64,000 nucleotides of DNA from Luteimonas granuli. GTDB taxonomy: Bacteria > Pseudomonadota > Gammaproteobacteria > Xanthomonadales > Xanthomonadaceae. The stretch's first letter is position 1, and every line of letters begins with the position of its first letter. Under the pieces are notes generated by a model. It was not told the origin of the DNA, did not search any database, and saw only the letters and a list, made by a program, of their open reading frames with translations. Shown here in pieces: positions 34,635 through 59,441 of this stretch. The translations under genes were made by a program, and so were the position numbers. Location of the stretch: assembly GCF_007795095.1 (NCBI RefSeq), contig NZ_CP042218.1, forward strand, positions 558,001-622,000, in the 5' to 3' direction.

Positions 34635-36152
34635 TCACTTCCGCGCCCGGAGCGTCGCCACGCCACGGCGGAGCTCGGGATCCAGCGCCAGGACGGGCAG
34701 AACGTAGAGGACCGCAAGCAGCAGCCCCGCCACCGCCAGCCGGGGCCATGCGCCCTGCAGGCCGAACAGCCCCGTGCCCTCGGCCACGCCCACCAGCACG
34801 ATCCCCCAGAACAGGGCGAGCGCCAGCGTGCGCGCGCCGGGCAGTTGCACCAGGCCTTTCGGACAGCCGATGAACTGCGCCGCGGCCATCGCCGCGTAGC
34901 TGATCGCCGCGGCCCATGCCGCGCCCATGTATCCGAGGCGCGGGATCAGGATGAAGTTCATCGCCACGTTCAACAACGTGGTCCCGACGGTGATCATCAG
35001 CACCAGCATCGTGCGCTTCTTCAACAGCATGCCGAAGCTGGAGATCCCGACCAGGGCCTGCAGCGAAACGGTGATGCCGAGGACCACGAACACTTCGCCC
35101 GACGCCGCCTTGCTTGCGCCGCTCAGCGCCACGATCAGGTCCTTTCCGGTGACCAGCACCATCGCGACGATCGCCACCACCGCATAGGTCATCGGGACCA
35201 GGATCCGCTTCTTCAGCGCCCGGACCCCCTCGCTGCCTCCGCTCTCGTACACCCGGTTGGCGACCGGAATGAAGGCTTCGGACAAGGTCGCGGAGATGAA
35301 CAGGTTCACCTGCATGGCCAGCGACCAGCCGATGGTGTAGATGCCGGCCATGGCGAAGTCGCCGGTGATCTGCTTGATCAGCACGCGATCGATGTTGGAC
35401 AGGACGGCATAGGTCAGTTCGTGGACCATCAGCGGCAGGCCGTAGATCAGCCCGGCGCGCAGCGCTCCGAAGTCGATCGCCTCGCGCGCGAAGCGGATGT
35501 TCCTGCGCAGCCAGTACATGAGCCAGACCAGCAGCAGGACGGCGGCGGCGATCTTTCCGCCATACACGGCCAGCGCACTCTGCTGCACCAGGATCACCGC
35601 GGCCAGCACCAGCGCCAGCTCCAGAAGGCGGCCCAGCATGCGCGACGCCATGACGATGTCCGACCGCTCGCTGGCGCGCATCACCGACTGCACGATCGCA
35701 CTGGCGGCCAGCATCGGCGTGAGCAGCACCGCGCACCAGAAGATCGGATCGAAGCCTTCGGCACGCTGCTGGCTCCACGCCGCGAGACCGATCGCACCGA
35801 GCATCCACAGCATCGCGGAGAGCATCAGCGGCAGCATCACGCTGTTGGTGCCGAACGCCCTGATCTCCTTCGCATCGCCCTCGTAGGGATAGAGGCGGAC
35901 GATCGCGTGGGGCGCCCCCAGCTTGATGATCGCAATCCCGAAGAGCATGAAGGATTCGTAGTATCTGAGGATGCCGAACTGGGTGTTGTCCAGGAGTCGG
36001 GTGAGGATCGGAAACGAGATGAAGCCGGCCAGCAGGGCCAGCGCGTTCGACGCCGAATAGCGCAGGTAATGCGTGGAAATGCTGGGGGGCTTGCGGGGCA
36101 CTGCCACTGGATGCCGATCGACTGCAGTTCCCGAGTCGGGCAGGCTGTTCAT
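34635..36152 (-). CDS. Wzx-type polysaccharide flippase (MOP superfamily)
   Basis: A 505-residue integral membrane protein with 12-14 hydrophobic segments. The N-terminal YLRYSASNALALLAGFISFPILTRLLD and the mid-protein YAVLSNIDRVLIKQITGDFAMAGIYTIGW region, quoted in parts, are typical of the polysaccharide-synthesis (Wzx/RfbX) family. It should flip a lipid-linked product across the inner membrane. It is the last gene of the minus-strand operon headed by the PPTase, and its ATG overlaps the end of the GINT1-like gene (ATGA, 36149-36152). It may serve the EPS made by the plus-strand genes, the product of the NRPS-PKS operon, or a conjugate of both. Confidence 0.9.
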   Translation of the reverse strand: MNSLPDSGTAVDRHPVAVPRKPPSISTHYLRYSASNALALLAGFISFPILTRLLDNTQFGILRYYESFMLFGIAIIKLGAPHAIVRLYPYEGDAKEIRAFGTNSVMLPLMLSAMLWMLGAIGLAAWSQQRAEGFDPIFWCAVLLTPMLAASAIVQSVMRASERSDIVMASRMLGRLLELALVLAAVILVQQSALAVYGGKIAAAVLLLVWLMYWLRRNIRFAREAIDFGALRAGLIYGLPLMVHELTYAVLSNIDRVLIKQITGDFAMAGIYTIGWSLAMQVNLFISATLSEAFIPVANRVYESGGSEGVRALKKRILVPMTYAVVAIVAMVLVTGKDLIVALSGASKAASGEVFVVLGITVSLQALVGISSFGMLLKKRTMLVLMITVGTTLLNVAMNFILIPRLGYMGAAWAAAISYAAMAAAQFIGCPKGLVQLPGARTLALALFWGIVLVGVAEGTGLFGLQGAWPRLAVAGLLLAVLYVLPVLALDPELRRGVATLRARK

Positions 36153-37911
36153 TCCGCCCGGCCGCTTGGCCCGGTCCCCACCAGCGACATCCCGGCGACG
36201 TCCGCCCCCGCGGCGGCGCCAGGTCCGTCCGCGAGGGCGGCGCTCCCGCCGCCGCCCTGGGGCGGTCGCCGTCGAACAGCTCGAGGAACACCGCATCCCG
36301 CGGCGCCCGCCCGAAGATGTCGAGGGCCTCGACGCCACCGTCGATGCTGTAGCTGTGGCAACCCTCGGGTGTGCGGGCGAAATCCGCCGCCAGCTTCGAC
36401 AGCACGCGCTCGCGGTAGACCCCGGGGCCAAGCTCGAGGATCTCGTTGAACACGACGGCGTTGCCATAGTTCGGACCGCAATCCTGGGAGGGCCGGATCA
36501 GGCGCCCCTGATGGCTGAAGATCCGGCCGGCCATCCGGGCGCGCCTCACATCGCACACGATGGGACTGGCCGGATGCGGGCGGAACGGACCCTCGGGGCC
36601 GTCGGCGATGAACAGGAACAGGTCGTCGCTGGTGCTGTTGCCGCTTTCGGCCACGTTGACGAACAGGTACCAGTCGCCCTGGTGACGGTGCAGCACAGGA
36701 TCCACGCAGGCCCAGCCCGCGACGAGGTCCCGGACGCGCCTCCACTCCAGCGGGAAGCCACGGGCACGGTACAGGCTGCTCCGGCGGGCGTAGCCGGATT
36801 CCACGGTCATGTACCACTCGTCCTCCCAGCGGAACACCTGCGGAAAGGACAGGTGCCCCCGCTCCCTGAGCGCCGTTCCCAGCCTGCGGGCCCCGCCCCG
36901 GGCCAGTTCCACGCAGGCGATGGAGGCCTTGCCGGTCGCCAGGTCCATCTCCTCGACGAAGAGCAGCACCTGCTGCCCGGTGGAGACCACGCAGGGATCG
37001 GCCCACCATCCCTCCGATGCCTTCAGGAGAGTGTGCCGCCCCATCTCCGGCGCCGCGGGGTCCAGCGGCGCCGGACCATCGCGTACGACCAGCATCCACC
37101 CGCGGTCCTTGAACCGCCCCCGCAATGACCGCGCCTGCGCCCTCAGGGTCGACAGCAGCAGGCGCACACCCGCGGCATGCCCCTGCAGCGACTGCGGCCG
37201 CAGCCGCAGTTCCGCTGCAGAACCGCCCAGCGGGGGTCCCTGCCCGGCCGCGACCCGCAGCAGCGCGCGCAGCAGCAGCGCCGGCAGCTTGCAGAAGGCA
37301 TCGTTGCGCGTCTTGAGGAAGGATGCGCGCGTCCGACCCCAGCTTCCCGCCACGAGCACGGGTTCCATGGTGGCCCCCTGCACCACCAGCTCCACATGTG
37401 TCGCCGGTTCACCACGCAGCATGAACGACAGCAGCGAAAGCCCCGCGTAGCGGGCGTCGACGAGGCTGGCGTCCAGGTGCCAGCAGCCCATGGCAACGCA
37501 GGGAGCCAACACGGAGGCCCATTCCTGCGGCCCGACCACGAGCGCGAGATCCGGACTCAGCGCTTCGACCTGCGCCAGCAGTGCGTCGGGCGTCGTGGCC
37601 CGGACGCCGGGGCCGGGCGGTGAAGCAAGCGCTTCCGGCGTCAGGCTTGTGTTGGCGCCGCGGTGGAGGAGCCGTTCCCAGGCGAGGAACAGGCGCACAC
37701 CGACGCCGGTGTCCAGGACCCTGGGAAGCGGCGCTTCGGGACCGGACACCAGGACCAGCTCGAGCCATTCATGGCGCAGCGCCAGATCCCTGAACACCCT
37801 GAGCCATGCGGGCACCTGCGGCGGCACCACGAGCACGACCCGCAAGGGCCTTTCAATGCCGGACGGCACCGGGTACAGCGCGCTGGTCCTGCCCGAGGCG
37901 TCGCGGTTCAT
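36149..37911 (-). CDS. Formyltransferase-like / GINT1-like beta-propeller protein, apparent -1 frameshift near the end
   Basis: The N-terminal third (about residues 10-210) resembles the formyltransferase fold (VVLVVPPQVPAWLRVF, LALVVGPQEWASVL). The C-terminal part (about 300-550) resembles the GH43-like N-terminal domain of glucosamine inositolphosphorylceramide transferase (ASEGWWADPCVVSTGQQVLLFVEE, HLSFPQVFRWEDEWYMTVE, IFSHQGRLIRPSQDCGPNYG). Function is unknown; such fused proteins occur in polysaccharide loci. After FLELFDGDRP the frame stays open for kilobases over other genes, while another frame ends at 36149 on the flippase ATG. One missing C in the CCCC run near 36255 reconciles this and gives 587 residues. 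Confidence 0.78.
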
Positions 37912-38750
37912 GGCTGTTCTCCAGCGGCCAGTCCGGTCATCCATTGCTCGACGGTCCCGATCAGTCGTTCGCGATGCACGCCTCCGAAATAGGTGTGATC
38001 GCAATCGGGCCAGTAGTACATCGTGACCCGCGGGTCGCGTGCGGCGGGACCGAACGTCCATCCGAACTGGCGTGGATGCAGGAAACGCTCCTCGTAGGCG
38101 CCGCTGAAGATGAAAAGCAGCCGAGCATCACGCTGCACCAGCCGGGCGAAGTCGCGCCGCGCCTGCGCGAGGTCCGGCCACGTGCGGAAGGCCGCGGAGT
38201 CGAGGCCGGTGCCGCCGCGGACGCGCGCCGGCAGCATGCGCGCGAAGCGTCGCCACTCCCGCGGCAGGCGGCGCAGCAGGCCAAGCACCCGTGCATAGTG
38301 GTACCAGGGCCCTGCGAAACAGATGCCGTCCGCCTGCAGGATCCCGACCACGCGCCGGTCGAGGCCCGCGACCTCCCACGCGGTGTCGGCCGCGCTGCAG
38401 ATGCCGCCGATGACGAAGCTCCGGCAGCCGTGCTCTTCCTCGAGACGATCCATCGCGGCAAGCGTTGCCCGGGCGGCATCGCAACCGCTCAGGCGGGGCG
38501 CCTCCCCGACGCCCGGGATGTCGTAGCGGAAGCTGCGGATCCCGCGGGCGGACAGCCGCCCCGCGAGCTCGACATGCAGCCGGAACGGGCCAGCGCGGGG
38601 TTGCAGGCCGGCACTGGGCAGCAGCAGCACGGGCCCCGTTCCATGGACGCCCCCCAGCACGCCCGTCAGTCGATCGCCCGGACCGAAGCGCACGAAGGCA
38701 TCGGGTCCCGCGTCGACCGCGGACGGAGCCGGGCGGCAGGCCAGGTTCAT
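37908..38750 (-). CDS. Exosortase-A-system-associated hydrolase 1-like protein
   Basis: A 280-residue alpha/beta hydrolase resembling the type 1 hydrolases of exosortase-A EPS loci. It shows VLLLPSAGLQPRAGPFRLHVELA, FRYDIPGVGEA and the nucleophile elbow FVIGGICSAADTAW, where Cys118 replaces Ser, and a candidate histidine in DCDHTYFG. The substrate is not known for the family. It follows the NRPS-PKS genes and the type 2 hydrolase in one operon with 4-bp overlaps at both ends (ATGA), and the assembly line has no thioesterase domain. A role in release or editing of the product is my inference. Confidence 0.8.
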   Translation of the reverse strand: MNLACRPAPSAVDAGPDAFVRFGPGDRLTGVLGGVHGTGPVLLLPSAGLQPRAGPFRLHVELAGRLSARGIRSFRYDIPGVGEAPRLSGCDAARATLAAMDRLEEEHGCRSFVIGGICSAADTAWEVAGLDRRVVGILQADGICFAGPWYHYARVLGLLRRLPREWRRFARMLPARVRGGTGLDSAAFRTWPDLAQARRDFARLVQRDARLLFIFSGAYEERFLHPRQFGWTFGPAARDPRVTMYYWPDCDHTYFGGVHRERLIGTVEQWMTGLAAGEQP

Positions 38751-39604
38751 GTCCACGCCCCCGCGCAAAGGGCCGCACCCAGCTCGCGCACGAACCCGCG
38801 CATGGGCGGAGTGAGGAACAGCGTGGCATCCATCGATACGCCCCCGGCGAACTTCGGCGCGGATTCGGGCAGGGACCAGCTCCGCGTCGCAGCGATCGGC
38901 GCGTCGCCGCCGTCCGGGCGCAGGATCGCCCACACCGGCACGTCGCCGCCCGCCAGGTCCGGATCCAGCCGCGCGCGCGCGAGCTGCATGCGCAGGCGTG
39001 GTGACGCCCTGTAGCCCATCAGCTGGCCGTCGTCGGGGCCGCCGGTGCGCGGCACGCCCGGGCGCGGCGGCGGCAGGACCTTCCTGGCTTCCACATCCGC
39101 GTCCACGAGTTCGCGCAGCCAGGCGGCGCCATCGCACACCGGCTCCCACAGCACGACCAGATCGGCCATGCCGCCGCACGAGCGCCATGCGCCCACGGCG
39201 AGCGCGGCTCCGCGCCAGGCCAGCAGCACCAGCCTCGCCACTCCGGTGCGCGCGCGCAGTTCCGCGACCGCGAGATCGAGGTCGGCGCGCATGGAATCGA
39301 AATCGAACTCGTCGCCGCGGCCGGACGAGTCGCCCGTACCGTGGAAGTCGAAGCGCAGCGAAGGCAGGCCCATGCCCGCCAGCTCGCCGGCGACTTCAGT
39401 GATGAAGCGGCGGCTGCGCGGCAGCTCGTCCAGCAGCGGAGGCACCAGCACCACGCCCGTCGAATGGATGCCTGGCGCCGGATGCAGGGCCGCGTACAGG
39501 GTGCGCGGGGGCGAGCCGAGCCAGAAGGGTTCCCAGTCGCCGATCCCGGCCGCGACCACTCCCGGACGGTCCGCAGCGCGGGCGGCAAGTACGGACGTCG
39601 TCAC
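38747..39604 (-). CDS. Exosortase-A-system-associated hydrolase 2-like protein
   Basis: A 285-residue alpha/beta-hydrolase-fold protein. Segments VLVPPLLDELPRSRRFITEV, LRFDFHGTGDSSG and LVLLAWRGAALAVGAW match the type 2 hydrolases of exosortase-A loci, where the nucleophile elbow is degenerate; here it reads AWRGA with no Ser or Cys. It is therefore probably not a classical serine hydrolase. Its ATG overlaps the stop of megasynthase 2 (ATGA, 39601-39604) and its stop overlaps the type 1 hydrolase start, so all three are translated in series. Confidence 0.78.
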   Translation of the reverse strand: MTTSVLAARAADRPGVVAAGIGDWEPFWLGSPPRTLYAALHPAPGIHSTGVVLVPPLLDELPRSRRFITEVAGELAGMGLPSLRFDFHGTGDSSGRGDEFDFDSMRADLDLAVAELRARTGVARLVLLAWRGAALAVGAWRSCGGMADLVVLWEPVCDGAAWLRELVDADVEARKVLPPPRPGVPRTGGPDDGQLMGYRASPRLRMQLARARLDPDLAGGDVPVWAILRPDGGDAPIAATRSWSLPESAPKFAGGVSMDATLFLTPPMRGFVRELGAALCAGAWT

Positions 39605-42600
39605 GACGTGGATCCTGCGGCGCGCCCGAGGAGACGCCGGAAGCGATCGCCGAGCCGCATGCCCAGACCGGCGACCGGCGCCTGTCCGGTCACGGGAACG
39701 GGCAGTGCTTCCGCGACCTGGGCCAGGGTCTCCGCGCCGAGGCGGATGAGCTTGATCCGCACGCCGGTGTCGCGCTCGACGCGGTTCGCCATCTGCACCG
39801 CCAGCATCGAGTGCCCTCCAAGATCGAAGAAGTTGTCGTCCGGCCCCGCGGGCAGTCCCAGCAGGTCCGACCAGACGGAGGAGAGGTAGCGCACGCGCGG
39901 GTCGGTCGCTTCCTCCGCCCCGCGCGGCAGCTGCACCGCGGCCGCGACCGGCACCGGAAGCGCGCTGCGGTCGACCTTCCCGTTCGGGAGCAGCGGCATG
40001 GCGTCGAGCACGACGAAATGCTGCGGCACCATGTACGCGGGAAGCTGGCCGCGCAGTTGGCCGCGCAGCGCATCCTCTTCGATCCGTGCACCCGTGCCCG
40101 CGACAAGGTACGCCACCAGCCGTTCGTCGCCCGGCCGGTCCTCGCGCACCATCACCAGCGCGCGGGCGACCTCGCCTCGCCCCACGAGCAGGGTCTCGAT
40201 CTCCCCCGGTTCGATCCGGTGCCCGCGCAGCTTGACCTGGAAGTCGAGCCGCCCTTCATGCCTGAGCACGCCGTCGTGGCGCCAGCGTCCGCGGTCGCCG
40301 GTGCGGTACAAACGTGCAGGAAGCGTGGATCCCTCGAAGCGCGCCACTCCCGGAAACGGGTCCGGAATGAACCGCTCGGCGGTGAGCTCCGGCCGGTCGT
40401 GGTAGCCCAGGCTCATGCCGGCGCCACCGATGTGGATCTCGCCGGGGACTCCGGGCGGACAGAGCTGCCGGCGCGCATCCAGCACCCACACCGTCGTGTT
40501 GTCGATCGGGCGCCCGATATGAATGTCCGGCGCCCCGCCATCCCCGGACGCGTGCACCCGGGCGCAGGTGGACCAGACCGTGGTTTCGGTCGGGCCGTAC
40601 ATGTTCCACAGCTCGATGCCCTGCGCGAGCAGCCGCCGCGCCAGGTCCACGGGCAAAGGCTCGCCGCCGCACAGGGCCTTGAAACCGGGGCGTGCCCGCC
40701 AGCCAGAATCCAGCAGCAGGCGCCAGACGGATGGCGTGGCCTGCAGGAGCGTGGCCTCGCTGGCGTGCAGCAGCCGCGCCAGCGCCGCGCCATCGAAGAC
40801 CTGTTCGCGCGAGGCGAGAACGATGGTCGCACCGGCAGCCAGCGGCAGGAACAGTTCCAGCACCGCGATGTCGAACGACGTGGTCGTCACCGCCAGCAGG
40901 CGGTCGGACGGCGAGATTCCCGGTTCGCGGCGCATGCTGCGCAGGAAATTCACCACCGCCCCGTGGGGCACGCGCACGCCCTTCGGCTTTCCGGTCGATC
41001 CGGAGGTGTAGATGACGTAAGCCGGCGCGTCCGGGCCGACGTCGGGAAATCCGGCGGGCGGGGGCATGGAATCGATCTGCGCACCATCGGCATCCAGCAG
41101 CAGCAGCTGGTGCCGCGGCCACTGCAGCGGCGCCGCCAGTCCGCCTTTGCTGACCACCAGCTTCAGGCCGGCGTCCTCGGCCATGAAACGCAGGCGGTCC
41201 GGGGGATAGGCGGGGTCCAGCGGCACATAGGCGGCGCCAGCCAGCAGCACGCCGATCATGCTTGCGACGAGGTCGGTATCGCGGTCCAGGCAGACGCCCA
41301 CCAGGTCGCCGCCGGCGACGCCCCGCGCGACCAGCGCGGACGCGATGCGTTCGCTGCGCGCCTGCAGCTGCGAACAGTTCGTCACCTGCCCGTCGAAATG
41401 GATCGCGGCGGCCGACGGCGTGGCCCGAAGCTGCGCCATGACCATCGCATGCACGCTGGCCGGCGCCTCGAGCGGCACGCTGGTGGCATTCCATTCCTGC
41501 AGCATCCTGCGATCCTCGGCACCCACGCAGTCGAGGTCGCCGACCGGAGTCCCGGGTGCCGTGTGCGCCGAAGCCAGCAGCGCCTCGAAACCCCGGCGCA
41601 TGCGCGCGGCGGACTCCGGGAGGATGATGTCGGCGTTGTAGTTCAGCGTGGCCGCCAGTCCGCGCGCATCGGCCTGGCACCACAGCGCCAGGTCGTTGGT
41701 CGCGGTGGTCTGCGGCAGGTCCACGGGCTCGCAGGCCACGGCTCCCCAGGCGGGAGTGGAGCCGGCCTCCTGGAACGAGAACACGGCCTGGTAGATCGGA
41801 TTGCGGCCGGGGTCGCGGCGCAGGCCCAGCGCCTGCACCAGGTCTTCCAGCGCGACATCGGGATGGGTGAAGCAGTCCAGCACCGCCCGGCGGACGCGCT
41901 CGACCAGCTGCAGGAACGAGAGGTCGGGATCCACCTGCACCCTGACCGGCAGGATGTTGACGAAGAATCCCAGGACGCGGTCCATCGCCTCGGAAAGGTG
42001 CTCGCGCACCGGGACTCCGACCACCAGGTCCTCCTGCCCGGTGATGCGGTGCAGCCAGGCGAAGTACGCCGCGAGCAGGGTCATGAACAGGCTGGCATCC
42101 ACGCCTGCGCCGACCTGGCGGAGCCGGGCCAGCGCCCTGTCATCGAGGCGCACGGACTCCGAGCCGCCGCGCCCCGTCGGCACCGGCGGCCGCGGGAGAT
42201 CCTCGGGAAGCTGCAGCGGTGCCAGATCGCCGGACAGGGACTCCGTCCAGTACGCCAGCTGCGTCCGCGCCTCCGGGCTGTCGGCCCGGGCCAGGTGCCA
42301 GTGGACGAAGTCCACGTAGCTGCGTTCGAGCTCCGCCGGTTCCGCGGACCGGCCTTCGCTGATGGCCGCGTACAGGGCCGCCAGTCCGGCGCAGAACCGG
42401 TCCTGCGAAACGCCGTCCCAGACGACGTGGTGCACCATGAAGAAGAAGACGTGGGTGTCCGCGGCAAGCCGGTACAGACAGGCGCGGAACAGGGGCGCCC
42501 TGTCCATCGCGATGGGCTGCGCGGACAGCTCGACCATCCGCCGCGTGGCCTCGGCGCCGGCGTCCTCCGGAGGCCGCATGGACAGGTCCTCCAGCGGCAG

Positions 42601-48600: not shown

Positions 48601-51065
48601 GTGTACAGGCTGATCGCCGGCCCGGTCAGATCGAGCTTGTGCGCGATGCGCGTGGCGATGTAGTCCTTCTCGTTCGCCAGGGTGACCTGGTAGGCCCCGA
48701 CCTTGGCGACCAGGTCCGGGTGCGCCGCCACATGGCGCCGCAGGTAGGTGGAGTGGTAGGTGCCGGCGAACACCCCGACGGGGCCCGCGGTGGCACCCGG
48801 GACCTCGCCGCCGCGCTCCATGCACTCCCAGCACAGTTCGAGGAAGATCCGGTGCTGCGGGTCCATCAGCTCGGCTTCGCGCGGACTGATGCCGAAGAAG
48901 CCGGCATCGAACTCCTCCACGCCGTCGATCACGCCGCGCGCGGCCACGTAGCAGGGATGCATGCGGTCGGCGAGCGGGATGGACGGATCCAGCGTTTCGG
49001 GCGGGAACACGGTGATCGACTCGCGCCCGGCGCACAGGTTGTCCCAGAAGGCCTCGACATCGCCGGCGCCCGGGAAGCGGCCCGCCATCGCGATGATGGC
49101 CACGGGTTCGTGGGTGGGCGCCTGCCCGATCGATGCGCCGGAAGCGGCGGGGTGGCGGCTCGGGAAGCGCTGTCCTCCGATGGCCACGGCTTCACTCCGC
49201 GCGAGCCCCGCGGCCAGTGCGGCCGGCGTGGGAGCCGAGTAGACCAGGGTCGCGGGCAAGGGCCGCGCGCTGTCCTCCTGCAGTCGCGCCAGCAGCTGCA
49301 GGGCCAGCATCGAATTGCCGCCGAGGTCGAAGAAATTGTCGAGGCGTCCGACTCGTTCGATGCCGAGGATGCCTGCGAAGGCTTCGCACACGCGCGCCTC
49401 CCCGGCACTGGCCGGTCCGGCATAGGCGACGGCCAGGTCCGGGCGGCCGGTTCCCGGCGCCGGCAGCGCGGCGCGATCGATCTTGCCGTTCGCGGACAGG
49501 GGCAGACGGTCCAGCGGCAGGCAGAACGCCGGAACCATGTAGTCCGGCAGGCTGGCGGCGAGCCTGGCGCGCAGGTCGGGGGCCATGACCCCGCTTCCGT
49601 CGGGCACGTAGTAGGCCACCAGCCGCACGTCGCCGGGCCGGTCCTCGCGCGCCACCACCACCGCTTCGCGGACGCCCGGGCATTCGCGCAGCCGGGCCTC
49701 GATCTCGCCGGGTTCGATCCGGTTGCCCCGGATCTTCACCTGGAAGTCCTTCCTGCCGACGAAGCGGTAACTGCCATCGGGCAGCTGCTGGACAAGATCG
49801 CCGGTCCGGTAGACCAGGTCGCCGGGATCGGTGCCGCAGGGATTGGAGATGAAGGCCGCTGCGGTGAGCTCGGGGGCGTTGCAGTAGCCCAGCGTGCGAT
49901 AGGGCGTCCTGATGAACAGTTCGCCGATTTCGCCGGGCGCGCAGGGCGCCAGCCCGGCGTCGAGCAGGATCGCCTCGGAGCCCGGCATCGGCTTGCCGAT
50001 CGGCACGAAGTCGCCGCTCACCGCGGTGGCCGGCAGCCGGTGGAAGAACTTCGCCAACGTCGTCTCGGTCGGACCGTACAGGTTGACGAGCCGGGCGCGC
50101 GCGCCGAAGCGCCCGATCCACGCGTTGGCATCCGCCGGCGCCAGGCTCTCGCCCGCCAGCAGCACGAACCGGAGCGCGGGGAAACGGTCCGGAGCGGGAT
50201 CGCTCGCCAGCAGGAGCCGGAAGACCGAGGGAACGCAGTGCACCAGGGTGATCCGCGCCTGCTCGATCCAGTCGGCCAGCGCGGGCCCCGGGAGTCCCGC
50301 CGCCGGCGGGATGCATACGGTGCCGCCGCTGCACAGCGCTGCGAACACGTCACGCAGGTAGACGTCGAACGCCGGCCCGGTCAGCTGGCTGATGCGCGAC
50401 CCCGGCCCCAGGCCGAACTCGGCCATCTCCCACTGGATGAAATGGGCGAGCCCGCGGATCCGGCCGACGATGCCCTTGGGCCGGCCGGTCGAGCCGGAGG
50501 TGAAGTAGACGTAGCAGGGATCGTCGGGCAGCGTCGGCACGGACACCCTGTCCGTCCCGTATCCGGTCGCGTCGAGGACCTCCACCAACTGATCGGTGGA
50601 GCGATCGGCCAGAAGGGTCACTGCGCCCATCGAGACGACGGTGGCACCCTGGCGCCCTTGCAGCAGTACGGAGGCAAGGGTGGCGGTGGATGCATCCAGG
50701 ATCATCCAGCGCGCCGCGCAGGTGTCCAGCATGTGCTGCAACCGACCTGCCGGATGAGTCGCATCCAGGGCGGCGAAGACGCAGCCGGCCTTCAGGCATC
50801 CCAGGATGGCGACGATCCTGTCGAGCGGATCGCCGAGCAGGATCGCAACGATGGTGCCCCTCTCCGCGCCACCGCATACCAGCGCAGCGGCCACCTGGCT
50901 GGAGCGCTCGTCGAGCTCCCGATAGCTGGTGTCGGCCGCGCCCCGGGACACGGCGGTCGCGGAAGGCGCGGATTCGACCCGCTCGCGGAACAGATCCAGC
51001 ACGTCGACCGCGCGTTGCGGAACCTCCAGCCCGGTCGCGGCCAGGCCTCGCGGTCGATCATTCAC
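39601..51065 (-). CDS. Hybrid NRPS-PKS megasynthase 2 (A-T-KS-AT-T-C-A-T-C-A-T), apparent -1 frameshift
   Basis: After correction, about 3821 residues. Domain order (approximate residues): A 20-540; T with LGGNSML 583; KS 653-1080 with TACSTSLVA, EAHGTATP and SNVGHL; AT 1180-1500 with GHSVGEF and the malonyl-type HAFH; T with LGLDSLM 1615; C 1682-2110 with HHIVCDG; A 2138-2640; T with LGGHSLL 2685; C 2748-3170 with HHVVWDG; A 3200-3710; T with LGGHSML 3753. There is no thioesterase, reductase or ketoreductase. By eye the second and third A pockets read close to glycine codes (DILQLGLVW, DILQLGMVW); the first is unclear. The frame breaks in a six-G run (43133-43138, plus strand); one more base joins both halves. 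The GTG start overlaps the megasynthase 1 stop. Confidence 0.92.
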
Positions 51066-54000
51066 GACGTGCTCCTTGAAAGTGCGTGCGCCCCGCGGGC
51101 GTCGGCGGGCAGCTGCGCGTCGAGCATCGCGGCAAGCCTGCCAAGGCTGGCGCAGCTGCCCATCAGCTCGCGGAACGTGATCTGCACCCTGAACGCCTTC
51201 TGCACCTGGCGCACCACCTGGGTCAGCATCAGACTGTCCAGGCCGAGCTCCATGAAATTCGCGTCGGGATCCGCTCCGGACAGGTCGAGGCCGGCGACGT
51301 CCGCGAACAGCGCGCGCAGTTCGTCGACCAGCGTGAGCTTGCGTTGTGCCGCAACGCATTGCGGGTCCGCGGAAACGGCTCCGTCCTGGACGGACCGTGG
51401 CACCGGGAGCGGTTCCGGCTCCGGCGGCGTGGTGATGGCAGCCTGGTGCACGACATCGTCCGTCGAGGGGGGATCTACCCAGTAACGGCATCTCCGGAAC
51501 GGATAGGTCGGCAGGCACACGCGGCGGCGTATCCGCCGGTGGTCTAAGCCGGCCAGGTCGATGTCGGCGCCCAGGCTCCACAGCCGGCCCGCCGCTTCCA
51601 GCAGGCTGGCGGCTTCCGCCCCCGCGTCGGCGGCATCGGCCAGCGACATCACCGTCGCCAGCTGCGGCCGCCGCTGGGCCTCGGGATGCTGGCGCACGAA
51701 CTGGCACAGGCCGGCGCGCGGCCCGACCTCGAGCAGGACACGCGGAGCGTCGCCTGCCAGCTGTGCAACGGCCCGCGCGAAACGCACCGGCGCCCGCAGG
51801 TGCGCGGCCCAGTAGTCCGCGGAGCCGGCAGTCGCCGCATCCAGCCACTGCCCGGTCGCGGTCGATACCAGGGGAATCGACGGAGCTCCGCGCGGCGTGG
51901 CCTCCACGTCCGCCCGGAACGGCTCCACCACCGGCTCCATCATGGTGGAGTGGAATGCGTGCGAGGTGCAGAGCAGCCGGCAGGCGACGCCATCGGCATC
52001 GAGCCTCGCCTGGAATGCGGCGACCGCCTCGTGCGGACCGGCCACCACGCAGGCGCCCGGCGCGTTCTCGACGGCCAGCGACAGACCGGGAGGCAGGCGC
52101 TCGAGCAGCGCCTCCAGTCCGAGGCGGACCGCGAGCATCCCGCCGCCGGGCTGCACCTGCATCAGCGCGCCTCGACGCGCCACCAGGCGCAGCGCGTCGG
52201 GCAGTTCGAACACCCCCGCCAGCGTCGCCGCGACGAACTCGCCGACGCTGTGGCCCACCATCGCCACCGGCCGCAGGCCGAGCGCGAGCCAGGTCCTGGC
52301 GAGCGCGTATTCGATCGTGAACGTCGCCGGCTGCATGATGCCCGTCGGCCGCAGCGCTTCGATCTCGTCCCCGAAGATCCGCGCCCCCAGGTCCGGCAGC
52401 AGCGACCGCAGATGCTCCATGCACTCGTCGAACGCCGCCCGGAACGCCGGCTCCCGTGCGTACAGTCCGCGACCCATGCCGGCCTGGACCGCGCCCTGCC
52501 CCGGGAACATGAAGACGACATCGGCCTCGCGCGCAGGACGGCTGCCCGCGGCCATTTCCATGACCGCGGGGCTGCGCAGCCGCGCGACTGCGGCCCCTGT
52601 GTCCTCCGCCGCCACGGCGAGCCGGTGGGGAAAGGCCTTGCGACCCCGCGCCAGCGTCCATGCCACGTCGGCGAGGGAGGCGTCGGGGTGGCGTTCCAGA
52701 TGGTCGGCCAGGCGCAGGGTCGCCGCCGCCAGCGCATCGGGATCGCGCGCGGACAGCGCCAGCAGGTGCGGGGCCAGGCCCGGTTCGGAGGGCTCGTGCC
52801 GCGGCGCTTCCTCCAACACCACATGGGCATTGGTCCCGCCAACGCCGAAGCTGCTGACCCCTGCGCGCCGCGGCACGCCGGGAGGACTGTCCCAGGCAGA
52901 CAGGCGGTCCACGACGCGGAACGGCGTGTTCGCGAAATCGATCGTCGGATTGGGCGTGGCGAAATGCACCGTGGGCGGCAGCCGTCGCGCGGACAGCGCC
53001 AGCGCCGTCTTCACCACGCCGGCGACGCCGGCGGCGGCCACCAGGTGCCCGATGTTGCTCTTGACCGAGCCGATCAGGCAGTAGCCGATGTCGTCGGTGG
53101 CGCCGCGGAAGGCGCGGGTCAGGCCCTCGATCTCGATCGGGTCGCCAACCGGTGTCGCGGTGCCGTGGGTTTCGACATAGCTGATGCTGCGCGGGTCGAC
53201 GTCGGCGTCGGCCAGTGCCATCGCGATCACCGCGGCCTGGCCGGCGCTGCTGGGCGCCGTGAAGCTGGCCTTGTCGCCACCGTCGTTGTTGAGCCCGGCA
53301 CCGCGGATCACCGCATAGATCGGATCGCCGTCGGCCTGCGCATCCTCCAGGCGCTTGAGCAGGAGCACGGCCGCGCCATCGCTGAATACCGTTCCCCGCG
53401 CGTTCGCATCGAAGCTCCGCGTATGCCCGTCCGGTGAGAGCATCGCGCCTTCCTGGTAGAGGTGGCCGCTGCGCACGGGACTGGTGATCGACACGCCCCC
53501 TGCGAGCGCCATGTCGCAGCGCCCGAGGCGCAGGCTGTCGACCGCGGCGCAGATGGCGACCAGCGAGGTCGAGCATCCGGTCTGCACGCTCATCGCCGGG
53601 CCGGTCAGGTCGAGCCGGTTCGCCACGCGCGTGGCGATGTAGTCCTTCTCGTTGGCCAGCATCGCCTGGAAGGCTCCGATGCGCTCGACGAGGTCGGGAT
53701 TGGCCAGGACGTTGTTCCGGTAGTAGCTCGCGTTGTACGCGCCCGCGAACACGCCCACCGGCACGCCGACGGTTCCCGGCGCGTGTCCGCCCCGCTCCAG
53801 GCACTCCCAGCAGAGTTCCAGGAAGATGCGCTGCTGCGGATCCATCAGCTCCGCCTCGCGCGGGGCGATGCCGAAGAAGCCCGCGTCGAACAGCTCCACC
53901 CCGTCGATCACGCCGCGCGCGGGCACGTAGTCCGGATCGCTGCGCAGGCCGGCGGCCACGCTGCGGTCGAGCTCCTCGGGTGCGAAACGGGTGATGGAGT

Positions 54001-56692
54001 CGCGCCCCGCGCACAGGTTGTCCCAGAACGCCTCGATGTCGGCCGCCCCCGGGAAGCGTCCCGCCATGGCCACGATCGCGATCGCTTCATGCACGCCCGC
54101 GCTCCGGCGGGGCGTCGCCATCCGCCGCGCGTCGATGGCGCCGGCATCGGCGGTACCGCCGTCCAGCGTCCGCGCGAGTGCCGCCGGCGAAGGGTGTGCG
54201 AAGAGCGCGGTCACCGCGAGTTCCAGGCCCGCCTCGCGGCGCAGCCGTTCGACCATGCGTGCCGCGAGCAGCGAGCCGCCGCCCAGTTTGAAGAAGTCAT
54301 CGTGGCGTCCGACCTCCTCCAGGTCGAGCACATGCGCCATCGCCCCGCACAGCGCCGCTTCGATGTCTCCGCGCGGCGCCTCGTACGGACCGGCGCAACG
54401 GGGACGCCCGCGGCCCGGCGGCGGCAGGGCCGCGCGGTCGAGCTTGCCGTTCGGAGTGAGCGGCAGCGCGTCCAGCGGAACATAGGCGACCGGCACCATG
54501 TACTCGGGCAGGACCCCAGCCAGGTGCCGGCGCAGCGTCTCGGCGGCGACGGGCCGCAGCGGGTCGACGGGCGTGTAGTAGGCGACGATCCGCTTGAACC
54601 CCGGCGTGTCCTCCCGCACGACCACGCCGGCCTCGCGTACGCCAGGGCAGGCCATCGCCTGCACCTCGATCTCGCCCGGCTCGACGCGGAAGCCCCGGAC
54701 CTTGACCTGCAGGTCCCGCCGCCCGAGGTATTCCAGCGTGCCGTCGACGCACCAGCGCCCGAGGTCGCCGCTGCGGTACATGCGCGCGCCGGGCGTGGCC
54801 ACGAAGGGATCGGGCAGGAAGCGCTCGGCGGTCAGGTCGTCGTGCCCGACATAGCCGCGCGCCACCACCGGGCCGGCCAGGTGGAGCTCACCGACGACGC
54901 CCGGCGGGACCGGTTCCAGCAGGTCGTCCAGCACGTACACGCGCGCGTTCGCGATCGGCCGGCCGATGGACGGCAGCAGCGGCCACTGCGCGGGGTCCTC
55001 CGGCAGCGTGAGCGCCGTGACCACATGGGTTTCCGTCGGGCCGTAATGGTTGTGCAGCCGGCAGCCGCGCAGGCGCTCGAACAGGCGCCGGATCTTCGGC
55101 TCGATCCGCAGCTGCTCGCCGGCGGTGATCACTTCGCGCAGCGCGCAGTCGAGCGCCGCGTCCTCGGGCATTCCGTCCAGCGCGGCTTCCACGCCTTCGG
55201 CGAGCATCTGCAGCGCGAAGTACGGAAGAAAGGCCCGTTCGATCCGCTGCGTCCGGATGAAATCGAACAGGCGGTGCGCGCTGACGCGGGTGTCCTGCTC
55301 GACCATGCAGAGGCAGCCGCCGGTGCAGAGCGTCGCGAAGATTTCCTGGAAGGCGACATCGAAGCCGAGTGCCGCGAACTGCAGCGTGCGCCGAGGCAGG
55401 TCCGAACCGGGCTGGCGCACCTGCCAGTGCACGAGGTTCACCAGCGGCGCGTGCGGCATCGCGACGGCCTTGGGCCGGCCGGTGGAACCGGAGGTGTAGA
55501 GCACATACGCCAGGTGGCCGGCCTCGAGGCCGACCGCGCGCGGATCCGGGTCGGTATCGGGCATCCCGGTCCATGGCGGCGTCGCCGCGGTCAGATCGAA
55601 CAGCGGGACCGTGGGCACATGCTGCGCAAGCCCCGCTTCCCACGCCGACAACATGCGACCCTCGGTCAGCACCGCCGCGGGCCGGCTGTCGGCCAGCATG
55701 TAGCCGAGCCGTTCCAGCGGATACCTCGGGTCGAGCGGCACATAGGCCGCCCCGGCCTTCAGCACCGCCATCAGCGCGACCAGCAGGTCCACGCCACGGT
55801 CCATGTAGATCGCGACCCGGTCATCGGTTCCGACGCCGTGTGCACGCAGATGATGGGCAAGGCGGTTGGCTTCGGCGTTGAGGGCGGCATAGCCGAGCTG
55901 CCGGCGCGCGTCGACCGCTGCAATGGCCGAAGGTGTGCGCCGCACCTGGGCTTCGAACAGCGCGTGCACGCAGCTGTCGACGGGATGTCCGCTGGCGGCC
56001 GGATTGTGCGCCTCCAGCGCCTCCCGGCGCTGCCTGGTGTCCAGCATCGGCAATGCCGCGAGCGCGCAGGTTTCATCCTCGGCCATCGAACGCAGCAGCT
56101 GGCGGAGATATCCGAGGAAGCGCTCGATGCTCCGTGCGGTGTACAGGCCGGCGTCGTAGCCCAGCGCCAGTCGCCACCGGCCGGGCGTGCCCGACAGCCG
56201 GAGCGCGAGTTCGTACCCGTCGGTCACGGCGGAATCCGGTGCGTGGTCATCGTCGGAGGCATGGAACGCGATCTGTCGCGGGGATCCTCCGGCAACCGGG
56301 GGCCGGGCCGCGGGCAGCGCGGAGGCGACGGTCGCAAGCAGGCCGGACGTCGCAAGACCACCGAGGTCCAGTCGCAGCGCGACAGCGGGAACGATCGCCG
56401 GCCGGACGCCGCCGGTGCGGCCGTGCCGGACGGCGACATCGATCACGATCCCGTCCTGGCGGGACAGTCGCGACAGCAGCACGACCCAGGCCGCGAGCAG
56501 GACAGTATCGAACCGGACGCCGCACCGTTCCGCCAGCGCAGCGATCCGGTGCTCCAGCGGGGCGTCGATCATGCAGGCAACGCAGGCCGCTTCGCGGGCC
56601 GTCCCTCCCTCGCGGGAAAAATCGGTGGGCAAGTCCAACCGTGCCCCGCTGCTGCTTCCATTGCTTCCACTGCTTCCAGCCCACGCATCCAT
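51062..56692 (-). CDS. Hybrid NRPS-PKS megasynthase 1 (half C-A-T-KS-AT-T)
   Basis: 1876 residues. The first 215 match only the C-terminal lobe of a condensation domain: similarity starts at LDLPTDFSREGG and the HHxxxDG half is absent. Then: A domain 222-735 with YTSGSTGRPKAV, NHYGPTETHV and GDLGRW; T with LGGGSLLAA near 806; KS 868-1290 with QTGCSTSLVA, ETHGTATP and SNIGHL; AT 1389-1700 with GHSVGEF and the malonyl-type HAFH; T with LGLDSLM near 1816. The A pocket read by eye is DVQFIAHVV, the pattern associated with proline. No reductive domains are present. It follows the sugar-1-phosphate transferase by 107 bp, and its TGA overlaps the start of megasynthase 2 (GTGA). Confidence 0.92.
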   Translation of the reverse strand: MDAWAGSSGSNGSSSGARLDLPTDFSREGGTAREAACVACMIDAPLEHRIAALAERCGVRFDTVLLAAWVVLLSRLSRQDGIVIDVAVRHGRTGGVRPAIVPAVALRLDLGGLATSGLLATVASALPAARPPVAGGSPRQIAFHASDDDHAPDSAVTDGYELALRLSGTPGRWRLALGYDAGLYTARSIERFLGYLRQLLRSMAEDETCALAALPMLDTRQRREALEAHNPAASGHPVDSCVHALFEAQVRRTPSAIAAVDARRQLGYAALNAEANRLAHHLRAHGVGTDDRVAIYMDRGVDLLVALMAVLKAGAAYVPLDPRYPLERLGYMLADSRPAAVLTEGRMLSAWEAGLAQHVPTVPLFDLTAATPPWTGMPDTDPDPRAVGLEAGHLAYVLYTSGSTGRPKAVAMPHAPLVNLVHWQVRQPGSDLPRRTLQFAALGFDVAFQEIFATLCTGGCLCMVEQDTRVSAHRLFDFIRTQRIERAFLPYFALQMLAEGVEAALDGMPEDAALDCALREVITAGEQLRIEPKIRRLFERLRGCRLHNHYGPTETHVVTALTLPEDPAQWPLLPSIGRPIANARVYVLDDLLEPVPPGVVGELHLAGPVVARGYVGHDDLTAERFLPDPFVATPGARMYRSGDLGRWCVDGTLEYLGRRDLQVKVRGFRVEPGEIEVQAMACPGVREAGVVVREDTPGFKRIVAYYTPVDPLRPVAAETLRRHLAGVLPEYMVPVAYVPLDALPLTPNGKLDRAALPPPGRGRPRCAGPYEAPRGDIEAALCGAMAHVLDLEEVGRHDDFFKLGGGSLLAARMVERLRREAGLELAVTALFAHPSPAALARTLDGGTADAGAIDARRMATPRRSAGVHEAIAIVAMAGRFPGAADIEAFWDNLCAGRDSITRFAPEELDRSVAAGLRSDPDYVPARGVIDGVELFDAGFFGIAPREAELMDPQQRIFLELCWECLERGGHAPGTVGVPVGVFAGAYNASYYRNNVLANPDLVERIGAFQAMLANEKDYIATRVANRLDLTGPAMSVQTGCSTSLVAICAAVDSLRLGRCDMALAGGVSITSPVRSGHLYQEGAMLSPDGHTRSFDANARGTVFSDGAAVLLLKRLEDAQADGDPIYAVIRGAGLNNDGGDKASFTAPSSAGQAAVIAMALADADVDPRSISYVETHGTATPVGDPIEIEGLTRAFRGATDDIGYCLIGSVKSNIGHLVAAAGVAGVVKTALALSARRLPPTVHFATPNPTIDFANTPFRVVDRLSAWDSPPGVPRRAGVSSFGVGGTNAHVVLEEAPRHEPSEPGLAPHLLALSARDPDALAAATLRLADHLERHPDASLADVAWTLARGRKAFPHRLAVAAEDTGAAVARLRSPAVMEMAAGSRPAREADVVFMFPGQGAVQAGMGRGLYAREPAFRAAFDECMEHLRSLLPDLGARIFGDEIEALRPTGIMQPATFTIEYALARTWLALGLRPVAMVGHSVGEFVAATLAGVFELPDALRLVARRGALMQVQPGGGMLAVRLGLEALLERLPPGLSLAVENAPGACVVAGPHEAVAAFQARLDADGVACRLLCTSHAFHSTMMEPVVEPFRADVEATPRGAPSIPLVSTATGQWLDAATAGSADYWAAHLRAPVRFARAVAQLAGDAPRVLLEVGPRAGLCQFVRQHPEAQRRPQLATVMSLADAADAGAEAASLLEAAGRLWSLGADIDLAGLDHRRIRRRVCLPTYPFRRCRYWVDPPSTDDVVHQAAITTPPEPEPLPVPRSVQDGAVSADPQCVAAQRKLTLVDELRALFADVAGLDLSGADPDANFMELGLDSLMLTQVVRQVQKAFRVQITFRELMGSCASLGRLAAMLDAQLPADARGAHALSRSTS
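56651..56677 (-). repeat. Three 9-bp tandem repeats at the start of megasynthase 1
   Basis: On the coding strand, GGAAGCAGT, GGAAGCAAT and GGAAGCAGC follow each other and encode GSSGSNGSS at residues 6-14. The unit length is a multiple of three, so slippage would not change frame. Confidence 0.85.
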
Positions 56693-56799
56693 CTGTTGCC
56701 CTGCCGATACGCTCGGACCCCTGCTGTGGTGGAACGCCGATCGCCCGCTTCAGCGGCCAGTGACGTCCGTGGAAATGCGTGAATGCAGGCCGCGAGGCA

Positions 56800-58195
56800 T
56801 CACCGCGCACCGCGCCGGAACAGCACGACCTCGACCGTCTGCAGCAGGATCATCAGGTCGAAAACGATCCCCTGGTTCTTGACGTAATACAGGTCGAACG
56901 TCAGCTTCTCCTCGGCGTCGCGCACCGACGCGCCATAGGGATAGCGCAGCTGTGCCCAACCGGTCAGGCCCGGCTTCACGCAGTGGCGGACGCTGTAGTA
57001 GCGGATCTCGCGGCTGAGCATGTCGACGAACTGCGGGCGCTCCGGCCTCGGCCCGACGAAGCTCATGTCCCCCCGCAGCACGTTGAACAGCTGCGGCAGC
57101 TCGTCGAGCCGCGTGGCGCGGATGAAGCGGCCCACGCGCGTGCTGCGGTCGTCGTCCCGCGACGCCCACCGGGCGACTCCGTCGCTCTCCGCGTCCAGGC
57201 GCATGCTGCGGAACTTCACCAGCTCAAAGCAGCGTCCGTTCTCACCCACCCGCGTCTGCCGGTACAGCACCGGCCCCCCGGACTCCAGCCAGACGCACAG
57301 CGCCACCAGCAGCATGACCGGCCAAGCCACCAGCAGCAGGACGCAGGCTGCTGCGAGATCGAAGAACCGCTTGTTGAGCCGGCGCGGGGCGGACTGGTCG
57401 AAACCGTCGGAGAACACGAACCAGGACGGATCGGCCACGTTGACGGTGACCATCCCCGCCTCGCGCTCGAACAGCGTCGACAGGTCCGACACCGCGATGC
57501 CACGCTGCGTGCAGCCCAGCAGTTCGTTCATGGGCAGTCCGCCCCGGCGTTCGTCCGGGGCCACCACCACCTCGTCCACCCGCAGCAGGCGCGCCAGCTC
57601 CGCGACGCCCGACGTGGTGTGAATCTGGAGTTCGGGCGGCACCACCGCCGGCTGGCCCGCCACGGGCACGAACCCCACTACGATGAAGGGACCTCCGGTC
57701 CGACATGCGGCGCAATCTTCGATTGATGAGGTCGGCGTTCCAGCCCGCGCCGTACACCAGGATCCGGCGCTTGAACGCGTTGCCGCGGAAGCAGCGCCGG
57801 GCCAGCGAACGCAGCCCCAGCACGCCGACCAGACCCGGCGGGAGCGAGAGCGCCAGGATGCCCGGTCCGATATGGGTCGCCGGCACGAGGTGGTAGACCA
57901 CCAGCAGCGCCATCGCCGCGCAGGCGAAGGACAGCACCAGCCGCAGCACGAAGTCCATTCCGGTGTGCCTCGCATGCACCTGGTACAGCCCGAACGCCGA
58001 CATCGCGCCGGTCACGAACGCGGAAACAAGCAACTCCCTCAGCGGGACCTGGCCGAAGAGGGCCGGATGACTCCCGGACGGGTCGAAGGATCCGAACCTC
58101 GCTGCCAGCACGACCGCCGCGGCGATCAGAAGCGTTTCCGCCAGCCACTGCGCACGGAGCGCGCGTACCTTGCGACTTGCTGCCGTCGCATTCAT
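56800..58195 (-). CDS. Polyprenyl-phosphate sugar-1-phosphate transferase (WcaJ/EpsB-like), apparent +1 frameshift
   Basis: This enzyme type starts EPS repeat-unit assembly by moving a sugar-1-phosphate onto undecaprenyl phosphate. The N-terminal half (MNATAASRKVRALRAQW onward) has four to five membrane segments and a Rossmann-like part (RRILVYGAGWNADLIN). The C-terminal half has KRFFDLAAACVLLLV, SGGPVLYRQTRVGENG, KFRSM, RLDELPQLFNVLRGDMSFVGPRPERP and KPGLTGWAQL, quoted in short pieces, as in exosortase-A-type transferases. The two halves lie in different frames. One extra base around 57690-57705 (GACCGGAGG) explains it, and the corrected length of 464 residues fits the family. It is the only initiating transferase in the window. 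Confidence 0.87.
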
Positions 58196-58252
58196 GAACT
58201 GCTTCCTTCCTGGGGAGCGTGTGCGTCCGCTCCTCATCGCGGCGCATGCCAG

Positions 58253-59002
58253 TCAACGCACCGCCCTTGCAAACACGGACACCTCCGCAGGCGGACGCAG
58301 CCGGATGCACTCCACCGGCGCACCCGGCGGTGCGGCCACCGCACCCACCCAGTCGTCGCCGATGTCGAGCATCTGCAGCCAGGTCTTTTCCGCTCCGACC
58401 GGAGCGAGCGGCAGCGGTCTGCCCGCGGGCGCGGCGAACGTGCTCATCTCGCGGGCCATGCCCACGCCTGCGGCCTTCAGCAGCGCTTCCTTACGCACCC
58501 AGATCTCCAGCAGGCGGCGATTGATCCCGTCGCTGGAAGCACCTGCAAGCGCCGCCATCTCCGCGGGATGCGCCACGTGCCGGGCGATCTCGGACATCAC
58601 GCCGACACGGTCGGCGGGCTCGATGTCGACGCCCACCGGACCGGCTTCCGCCAGCGCCAGAGCCAGCGTGCCTGCCGAATGACTGAGACTGGTGGAAAGC
58701 GGCGTGCCGCGCAGCCTCGGGCAGCCAAGCGCATCGCGGACCAGCGGCACCGCGGCGGCATCGATGTCCATGCGTGCGGCGACCAGCAGCCGGTGCAGCG
58801 CGTAGGAGACGGTCAGCTCATCGCGATCACGGGCGTCTCGCCGTCGCCGCGCGCGCGCGCGATCGGCATCGTCCAGCAGCACCGACGCCTCGGCCAGCCA
58901 TGGAAGCCAATCGCACGTTGCCAACAGCACCACCCGGACCTGCGCCCGCGAATCCCCGGGCCAGCCGGGCAGCGACGAGCGGAATGCCGTGCGCAGGTCC
59001 AT
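58253..59002 (-). CDS. 4'-phosphopantetheinyl transferase, Sfp type
   Basis: It attaches the phosphopantetheine arm of coenzyme A to carrier proteins, and is the likely activator of the six T domains in the adjacent megasynthases. The 249-residue protein has SLSHSAGTLALAL, the Mg-binding GVDIEP and the WVRKEALLKAAG signature, plus LHRLLVAARMDIDA near the N-terminus. The ATG at 59002 (MDLRTAFRSS) fits; 14 more upstream codons are open. It is the first gene of the minus-strand operon, 57 bp before the sugar-1-phosphate transferase. Its location beside the synthases supports a dedicated role. Confidence 0.92.
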   Translation of the reverse strand: MDLRTAFRSSLPGWPGDSRAQVRVVLLATCDWLPWLAEASVLLDDADRARARRRRDARDRDELTVSYALHRLLVAARMDIDAAAVPLVRDALGCPRLRGTPLSTSLSHSAGTLALALAEAGPVGVDIEPADRVGVMSEIARHVAHPAEMAALAGASSDGINRRLLEIWVRKEALLKAAGVGMAREMSTFAAPAGRPLPLAPVGAEKTWLQMLDIGDDWVGAVAAPPGAPVECIRLRPPAEVSVFARAVR

Positions 59003-59207: not shown

Positions 59208-59284
59208 TGGCGCGCCCGGAAGGATTCGAACCTCCGACCCCCAAGTTCGTAGCCTGGTGCTCTATCCAGCTGAGCTACGGGCGC
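59208..59284 (-). tRNA. tRNA-Arg (ACG)
   Basis: A 77-base cloverleaf with acceptor stem GCGCCCG/CGGGCGC, anticodon loop CTACGAA (anticodon ACG), T-arm GGTTCGAATCC and encoded CCA. The A34 is expected to be edited to inosine to read CGN codons. It is downstream of tRNA-Ser in the same orientation. Confidence 0.97.
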
Positions 59285-59348
59285 GTTGCGCAGAAGCGGA
59301 ATTATGCAGAGGCTTGCGGCCCCGGTCAATCGGGTTCCGCCATGCAAC

Positions 59349-59441
59349 TGGCGGAGAGTGAGGGATTCGAACCCTCGATGGAGCTTTTGACCCCATACTC
59401 CCTTAGCAGGGGAGCCCCTTCGGCCTCTCGGGCAACTCTCC
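59349..59441 (-). tRNA. tRNA-Ser (GCT)
   Basis: A 93-base tRNA with a long variable arm, acceptor stem GGAGAGT/ACTCTCC, anticodon stem CTCCC/GGGAG, loop CTGCTAA (anticodon GCT) and encoded CCA. The csrA, tRNA-Ser, tRNA-Arg order is usual near recA in this family. Confidence 0.97.

Follow-up and report, generated by a model that had tools for sequence, protein, structure and literature searches.

A peptide-polyketide assembly line associated with an exopolysaccharide locus in Luteimonas granuli and across its order

Does a nonribosomal peptide synthetase-polyketide synthase (NRPS-PKS) assembly line that lies beside exopolysaccharide (EPS) genes take part in making the polysaccharide? The question is raised by a 64,000-nucleotide stretch of the Luteimonas granuli genome (hereafter the window: positions 558,001-622,000 of a single-contig genome of 2.9 Mb, 89.98% complete; G+C 70.8%), in which one minus-strand operon encodes, in order, a 4'-phosphopantetheinyl transferase (PPTase), a TIGR03013 sugar-phosphate transferase, the NRPS-PKS line, two hydrolase-like proteins (HydA and HydB), a GINT1-like protein and Wzx; a plus-strand export operon (Wza, Wzz, kinase, barrel, Wzy) converges with it. 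We find that the association of the NRPS-PKS line with EPS genes is real and widespread in the order and is not accidental, though it is not obligatory. We propose, with a probability of about 0.5, that the locus acts as a single unit for the synthesis of a modified exopolysaccharide, in which HydB would place an aminoacyl-polyketide-peptidyl group on the polysaccharide.

To measure the association, 299 genomes, an even sample of a larger group, were taken from the order and searched both with an alignment of the ketosynthase and with TIGR03013. With the family line at 620 bits, a value chosen after the scores were seen (next lower score, 598.6), the ketosynthase family is present in 53 genomes: 14 in the window's own family and 39 in a second family (f12, which includes the Dyella records), spanning 22 genera by hand count. 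The TIGR03013 transferase is present in 72 genomes, comprising 52 of the 53 with the ketosynthase and 20 of the 246 without it. The two genes share one contig in 49 genomes and are then always co-directional; the transferase lies upstream in 46 of these and downstream in three (G364, G002, G100); hand counting gave a distance of at most 25 kb in 48 genomes and of 42 kb in G100, with three further pairs on different contigs. As a control, other, lower-scoring ketosynthases of transferase-bearing genomes (E ≤ 1e-120, at most five candidates scored per genome) lay within 25 kb of the transferase in 1 of 29 cases. Export genes follow the same pattern. Of 30 genomes chosen for the ketosynthase, 25 have the transferase on the strand of the ketosynthase at a distance of at most 25 kb, and 19 have Wza on the other strand at most 60 kb away; in five, Wza is on a different contig, and G088 joins the linked cases, as the 20th, only on condition that its contig is circular. 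Neighbouring genes were located by tblastn with proteins of the window and its relatives, and dissimilar EPS genes could thus escape.

Genes also move between the two operons. In four relatives (G158, G155, G153 and G275; Dyella, Luteibacter and Rhodanobacter records, which we take to be Rhodanobacteraceae) the export operon consists of wza, chain-length, kinase, barrel, HydA and HydB genes, with a galE-like gene next in three of the four, and the transferase, NRPS-PKS, GT2 glycosyltransferase, Wzy, PaaK-like and other glycosyltransferase (GT) genes lie on the opposite strand. Across the far half of the locus in seven relatives, the HydA-HydB pair stands in the export operon in four and after the NRPS in two (G150, G151), the contig being too short in one (G164); it also follows the NRPS in the window, G050, G088, G066 and G056. 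Variovorax G166 carries NRPS, PPTase, hydA, hydB, wza, kinase and transferase genes in a row, and more distant loci (L082, L084, L115) have chain-length, kinase or wza homologues of 28-34% identity ahead of the NRPS-PKS. Such reshuffling between operons, while the set of genes stays constant, is the strongest sign that they form one pathway. The co-occurrence with EPS genes that an earlier, sequence-only reading of the window had proposed to look for is conserved over 22 genera and two families, with genes swapped between operons.

A further link comes from within the genome, where PF02397 (transferase), PF02563 (exporter) and PF01943 (flippase) have a single match each, all within the locus. 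Since the NRPS operon holds the only PF02397 and the only PF01943 genes, the polysaccharide half relies on that operon, as judged by these two families. The sequence-only reading had regarded EPS loci with a second initiating transferase and flippase as a sign of accident; by these two families this genome has one of each, and a further transferase or flippase is present in some relatives. The gene content and order that it gave for the minus-strand operon beside the EPS locus were borne out, with corrections of frame and strand, and so was its placing of the initiating transferase in the NRPS operon and of the export genes on the other strand, except that the PaaK-like and GT2 genes are on the minus strand inside the otherwise plus-strand half. 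The features are listed below, with domains abbreviated as A (adenylation), C (condensation), T (carrier), KS (ketosynthase) and AT (acyltransferase).

58253-59002, minus strand: PPTase (PF01648; Pfam match 4.6e-13)
56800-58195, minus strand: initiating sugar-1-phosphate transferase, TIGR03013 EpsB_2 (453.8 bits, cut-off 393.35), frame break at about 57.7 kb
51062-56692, minus strand: megasynthase A, half C - A1 (Pro-like code) - T - KS - AT - T (from Pfam and motifs)
42984-51065, minus strand: megasynthase B, A2 - T - KS - AT - T - C - A3 (from Pfam and motifs)
39601-43122, minus strand: T - C - A4 - T, probably the C-terminal part of megasynthase B past a frame break; no thioesterase domain found
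38747-39604, minus strand: HydA, alpha/beta-hydrolase-like, distantly related to TIGR03101, Arg at the nucleophile elbow
37908-38750, minus strand: HydB, alpha/beta-hydrolase-like, distantly related to TIGR03100, nucleophile elbow with a conserved Cys, plus a DH motif; candidate acyltransferase
about 36250-37911, minus strand: GINT1_N protein (PF24793), N-terminal half weakly formyltransferase-like, frame overrunning the expected end
34635-36152, minus strand: Wzx-type flippase, sole PF01943 match in the genome
32776-34554, plus strand: right-handed beta-helix protein 2, paralogue of beta-helix protein 1
31374-32321, plus strand: methyltransferase (PF13489)
30073-31209, minus strand: GT2 glycosyltransferase
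28640-30064, minus strand: PaaK-like adenylate-forming enzyme, under all family cut-offs
28052-28615, plus strand: hexapeptide acyltransferase
26482-27960, plus strand: right-handed beta-helix protein 1, Pfam Beta_helix just under cut-off
25163-26485, plus strand: Wzy-type polymerase (PF04932)
23976-25151, plus strand: GT4 glycosyltransferase
22661-23986, plus strand: GT4 glycosyltransferase
21266-22600, plus strand: outer-membrane barrel (PF10082)
20505-21269, plus strand: tyrosine autokinase, TIGR03018-like, under cut-off
18952-20496, plus strand: chain-length determinant, TIGR03007-like (269.5 of 278.85 bits)
18335-18955, plus strand: Wza-type export lipoprotein, sole PF02563 match in the genome
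17210-18235, minus strand: GalE-like epimerase, named from its sequence rather than from a family-library scan; homologue at the same place in G050

The two beta-helix genes (26577-27874 and 32901-34198) are about 94% identical in DNA over 1.3 kb (1220 identities, 74 mismatches, 6 gaps), and G050, G066 and G056 likewise have two copies. At the other end of the locus, genes for tRNA-Arg and tRNA-Ser (59208-59441) directly adjoin the PPTase gene, beside alaS.

Several genes of the locus are broken in frame. The two megasynthases that the sequence-only reading had named are both present, the second of them spanning two open reading frames (ORFs) in different frames (42984-51065 and 39601-43122) that correspond by tblastn to one protein in the same-genus relative G050, with the frame change at about 43.1 kb; the sugar-phosphate transferase shows, against the G050 protein, a frame change at about 57.7 kb. 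Its TIGR03013 match covers profile positions 149-443 of 443, and an N-terminal piece matches positions 6-154 in another frame; an intact transferase of 464 aa elsewhere (P0241) is 99% identical over 75% of the query, the window's own record being a fragment of 292 aa. The GINT1-like frame is open for 1681 codons, against mostly about 550-610 aa in relatives. Since the same kind of split, over two frames relative to its G050 homologue, affects a gene beyond the locus (10102-11768), at about 11.1 kb, the breaks are probably assembly indels rather than real inactivation in the strain. The likely N-terminus of the hexapeptide acyltransferase (27957-28187) is likewise in a different frame from its body (28052-28615).

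What might the line make? The KS, AT, C, A and carrier motifs of the window's NRPS-PKS are intact, save that the starting C domain of megasynthase A is only half a domain. Both AT domains carry an HAFHS motif, which we take to be of the malonyl type. Pfam scans of the window's lines found no thioesterase, ketoreductase, dehydratase, methyltransferase or aminotransferase (PF00202) domain. The start of megasynthase A (55973-56692) holds the C-terminal half of a condensation domain, with a Pfam match to residues 17-94, and the lines of G050 and G036 open, by eye, with a similar stretch.

For comparison, a contig profile scan gave 45 related loci (L052-L096, from the best 80 of 577 matches). In 32 of them the PKS carrier is followed by an aminotransferase domain, several of the other 13 being short; the window's lines, G066, L052 and L053 showed no such domain. 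The transferase is upstream within the available DNA in 19 of the 45, the others being too short, having it elsewhere or being without it. In the Desulfobacteraceae locus L115, homologues of the kinase, wza, transferase and PPTase stand before a related A-T-KS-AT-T line.

The A domain that precedes the ketosynthase in the window's line A has a code of the form DVQY.AHVV, presumably Pro-like. Among 56 such domains of relatives, 36 have DAL/DAF...GGTF codes (presumably Val-like), five or six share the window's code, and four have DFW..GMVH (presumably Thr-like); some genomes are counted twice in these numbers, and for many domains the code alignment is off by one at position 278 (printed P; by eye S). 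The first A domain of line B (A2) fits no code known to us.

The chain may leave the line by way of the hydrolase-like pair. The sequence-only reading had called both proteins exosortase-type hydrolases; the pair is present, and it is only distantly related to those families, scoring 42.2 of 168.45 and 72.3 of 202.75 bits against TIGR03100 and TIGR03101, far under the cut-offs, in a genome with no exosortase match. In alignments of hits of at least 50 bits, 35 of the 36 HydA rows extend to the column of the nucleophile elbow, and all 35 have Arg there; 26 of the 27 HydB rows do, and all 26 have Cys, with the DH motif in each of the 23 rows long enough to include it. Proteins entered twice account for four of the HydA and two of the HydB rows, and their removal leaves 31 and 24. 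A separate set of 20 HydB sequences shows no variation at Cys118, Asp251 or His252. The Arg in 35 of 35 rows speaks against HydA being a working hydrolase. Because HydA has Arg at this position and HydB a conserved Cys and His, HydB is likely the acyl-transfer enzyme of the pair, and an inactive HydA beside a Cys enzyme, after a line that lacks a thioesterase, suggests off-loading or transfer in trans. By sequence comparison with solved structures, HydB matches alpha/beta hydrolases weakly (best E 8.3e-06), and the GINT1-like protein gives weak matches to a beta-xylanase (E 0.0008) and to methionyl-tRNA formyltransferases (E 0.015 and 0.023). Homologues of the latter protein (P0220, P0222, P0223, P0240) are about 890 aa long and include a GT2 glycosyltransferase domain; there is a hint that the GINT1-like protein may work alongside a glycosyltransferase.

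In the mechanism that we propose, the PPTase would activate the carrier domains, and the line would activate amino acids, the first A domain probably proline or a similar residue as judged by its code. If the modules act in the order in which they are read, the chain would be extended by malonyl units with no reducing domain to act on them, further amino acids would be added, and it would stop on a terminal carrier domain in the absence of a thioesterase. HydA and HydB would then remove it in trans, with the Cys of HydB as the only nucleophile of the pair, and HydB would presumably pass it to a sugar, as a covalent substituent, of the lipid-linked repeat unit built by the TIGR03013 transferase and the GTs. 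Wzx would flip the unit, Wzy would polymerise it, and Wzz, the kinase and Wza would export the product. A peptide-polyketide that decorates the polysaccharide, as the sequence-only reading had put forward, is still the best hypothesis, at about even odds.

Several observations weigh against this reading. In G051 the module of PPTase, NRPS-PKS, HydA and HydB lies 850 kb from the EPS transferase, and in G165 it lies 90 kb from the transferase; in two Variovorax genomes (G161, G163) no EPS gene was recognised in about 17 kb downstream and about 7 kb upstream of it. The module can therefore persist without a linked EPS locus. G290 has the ketosynthase and no TIGR03013 transferase, and the ketosynthase is absent from 20 of the 72 transferase-bearing genomes. 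The value of 2.5e-40 by Fisher's exact test for the co-occurrence is a guide only, the genomes being related. The frame breaks in the window's own transferase, line B and GINT1-like gene count on the same side, as does the fact that an acyltransferase role for HydB is read from its motifs. A strict mutual need of the two halves, as the sequence-only reading had it, does not hold, as both occur alone; NRPS-PKS genes without EPS genes, which it had regarded as a sign of accident, exist in G051, G161, G163 and G165, with no EPS export genes recognised beside the module.

Other relatives carry a stand-alone ligase within 7 kb of the transferase, in G036 and G361 together with the NRPS and in G335 and G117 without it. 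TIGR03098 is its best match in G036 and G361 and its second in G335 and G117, under the cut-off in each case, and small carrier proteins lie beside it in G036 and G335, the two genomes scanned for them. We read this ligase as a putative simpler acyl-activation module in the same neighbourhood and count it in favour of polysaccharide decoration.

If the locus is one unit, we would tentatively extend the reading: the NRPS-PKS may be a regular, order-wide part of the Wzx/Wzy-dependent EPS pathway, in which a Cys-dependent alpha/beta-hydrolase, helped by its dead partner, would attach beta-keto or beta-amino peptides that differ from species to species to the repeat unit; the resulting peptide-polyketide-polysaccharides would be a class not yet described.

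Among the alternatives, the one that survives best, though we consider it unlikely, is that the product of the line is a free secondary metabolite, either co-regulated with the polysaccharide or held in its matrix, with HydA and HydB as releasing thioesterases that act in trans. The four genomes in which module and hydrolases lie apart from EPS genes (G051, G161, G163, G165) would fit such a product, and so would an architecture like that of ordinary NRPS-PKS lines, with the aminotransferase domain in those 32 of 45 loci; linkage across 22 genera, however, and hydrolases inside the export operon of four Rhodanobacteraceae speak for a joint pathway, as does the presence of the genome's only PF02397 and PF01943 genes in the NRPS operon, and no dedicated small-molecule exporter was noticed among the operon's identified genes, not every ORF having been scanned.

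Could the peptide-polyketide instead serve as an anchor or primer, by which the polysaccharide or a protein is tethered to the outer membrane, in place of the exosortase branch of XrtA (exosortase A) systems? PF09721 matches occur in 94 of the 299 genomes and are mostly weak. Of the transferase-bearing genomes, 14 of the 20 that lack the ketosynthase have one, against one or two of those that carry it (among all 53 with the ketosynthase two, G357 and G390, have a match, each weak, E 4e-7 and 1.5e-5), a distribution that would suit replacement, as would a transferase that is XrtA-type by NCBIfam in a genome with no exosortase match. Yet 11 of the 14 matches are weak (E 1e-7 to 1e-10), lie on other contigs or far from the transferase, and are doubtful exosortases, and the line as read holds no long fatty acyl unit for anchoring in a membrane; we regard this alternative as quite improbable. 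In the remaining three genomes (G303, G354, G372) a high-scoring exosortase lies about 9 kb from the TIGR03013 transferase. An exosortase system proper was rejected, as PF09721 has no match in the window's genome (89.98% complete) and the hydrolases are under the cut-offs; the canonical hydr1 (TIGR03100) was over its cut-off in none of eight comparison genomes, five of them with a high-scoring exosortase.

That both gene sets were inserted at one tRNA hot spot and co-inherited as accidental neighbours is very improbable: tRNA-Ser and tRNA-Arg (59208-59441) do adjoin alaS, which borders the loci of eight relatives (G036, L052, L053, L058, L069, L071, G335 and G051, the last two without an NRPS beside alaS), but the same linkage is found in G050, G066 and G056, with alaS not seen in the stretch examined, and in two families, genes mix between the operons and control ketosynthases are unlinked, so that the order-wide and within-genome tests disfavour it.

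If the proposed modification of the polysaccharide is correct, assembly-line enzymes known for antibiotics and siderophores would also diversify surface polysaccharides, and the differing A-domain codes suggest variation from species to species like that known from O-antigens. Genome mining would then miss the pathway wherever the two halves are taken for distinct clusters, and products sought in culture extracts would be matrix-bound. Hydrolase-like proteins distantly related to those of exosortase loci would gain a testable role.

The sequence-only reading knew of no described system with this combination, and we likewise found no paper whose title or opening of the abstract describes an NRPS-PKS line as part of an exopolysaccharide locus, in a search that lay mostly outside subscription journals and preprints and is weak evidence. 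In the parts available, a report of exosortase and EPS genes in Dechloromonas (PMC2907700) and one of epsB2 and PEP-CTERM in floc formation (PMC9850573) do not mention nonribosomal or polyketide synthesis; a report on Sphingomonas describes an EPS that requires an acyltransferase (PMC11340318), and in one on Clostridium polyketides (PMC5686105) such terms occur in its references only.

The locus resembles the XrtA/PEP-CTERM EPS loci in its TIGR03013 transferase, which is over the cut-off, and partly in its chain-length protein and kinase, which are nearest TIGR03007 and TIGR03018 but below cut-off (TIGR03007 being a near miss), and in its hydrolases, distant kin of hydr1 and hydr2 far below theirs; it differs in the lack of an exosortase match in the genome and in the NRPS-PKS line that its operon holds. 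It resembles a Wzx/Wzy-dependent EPS pathway in having an initiating transferase (frame-broken), Wzx, Wzy, Wzz, kinase, Wza and GTs, whereas its initiation and flipping genes share the megasynthase operon. NRPS-PKS lines with an aminotransferase (AMT) domain are of the iturin/mycosubtilin type, and many relatives share with them the order A-T-KS-AT-T-AMT-C-A-T (the aminotransferase being present in G088); the window's lines, like those of G066, L052 and L053, show no aminotransferase, and the window's line, unlike that type, starts with an amino-acid-type A domain rather than a fatty acyl ligase, has no thioesterase and is linked to EPS genes. In the D-alanylation of teichoic acids by DltA/DltC, an A domain and a carrier protein activate an acyl group for a cell-surface polymer; the window shares with that system the A domain, the carrier and a cell-surface polymer, and differs from it in its multi-module line with ketosynthases, its transferase and its polymer.

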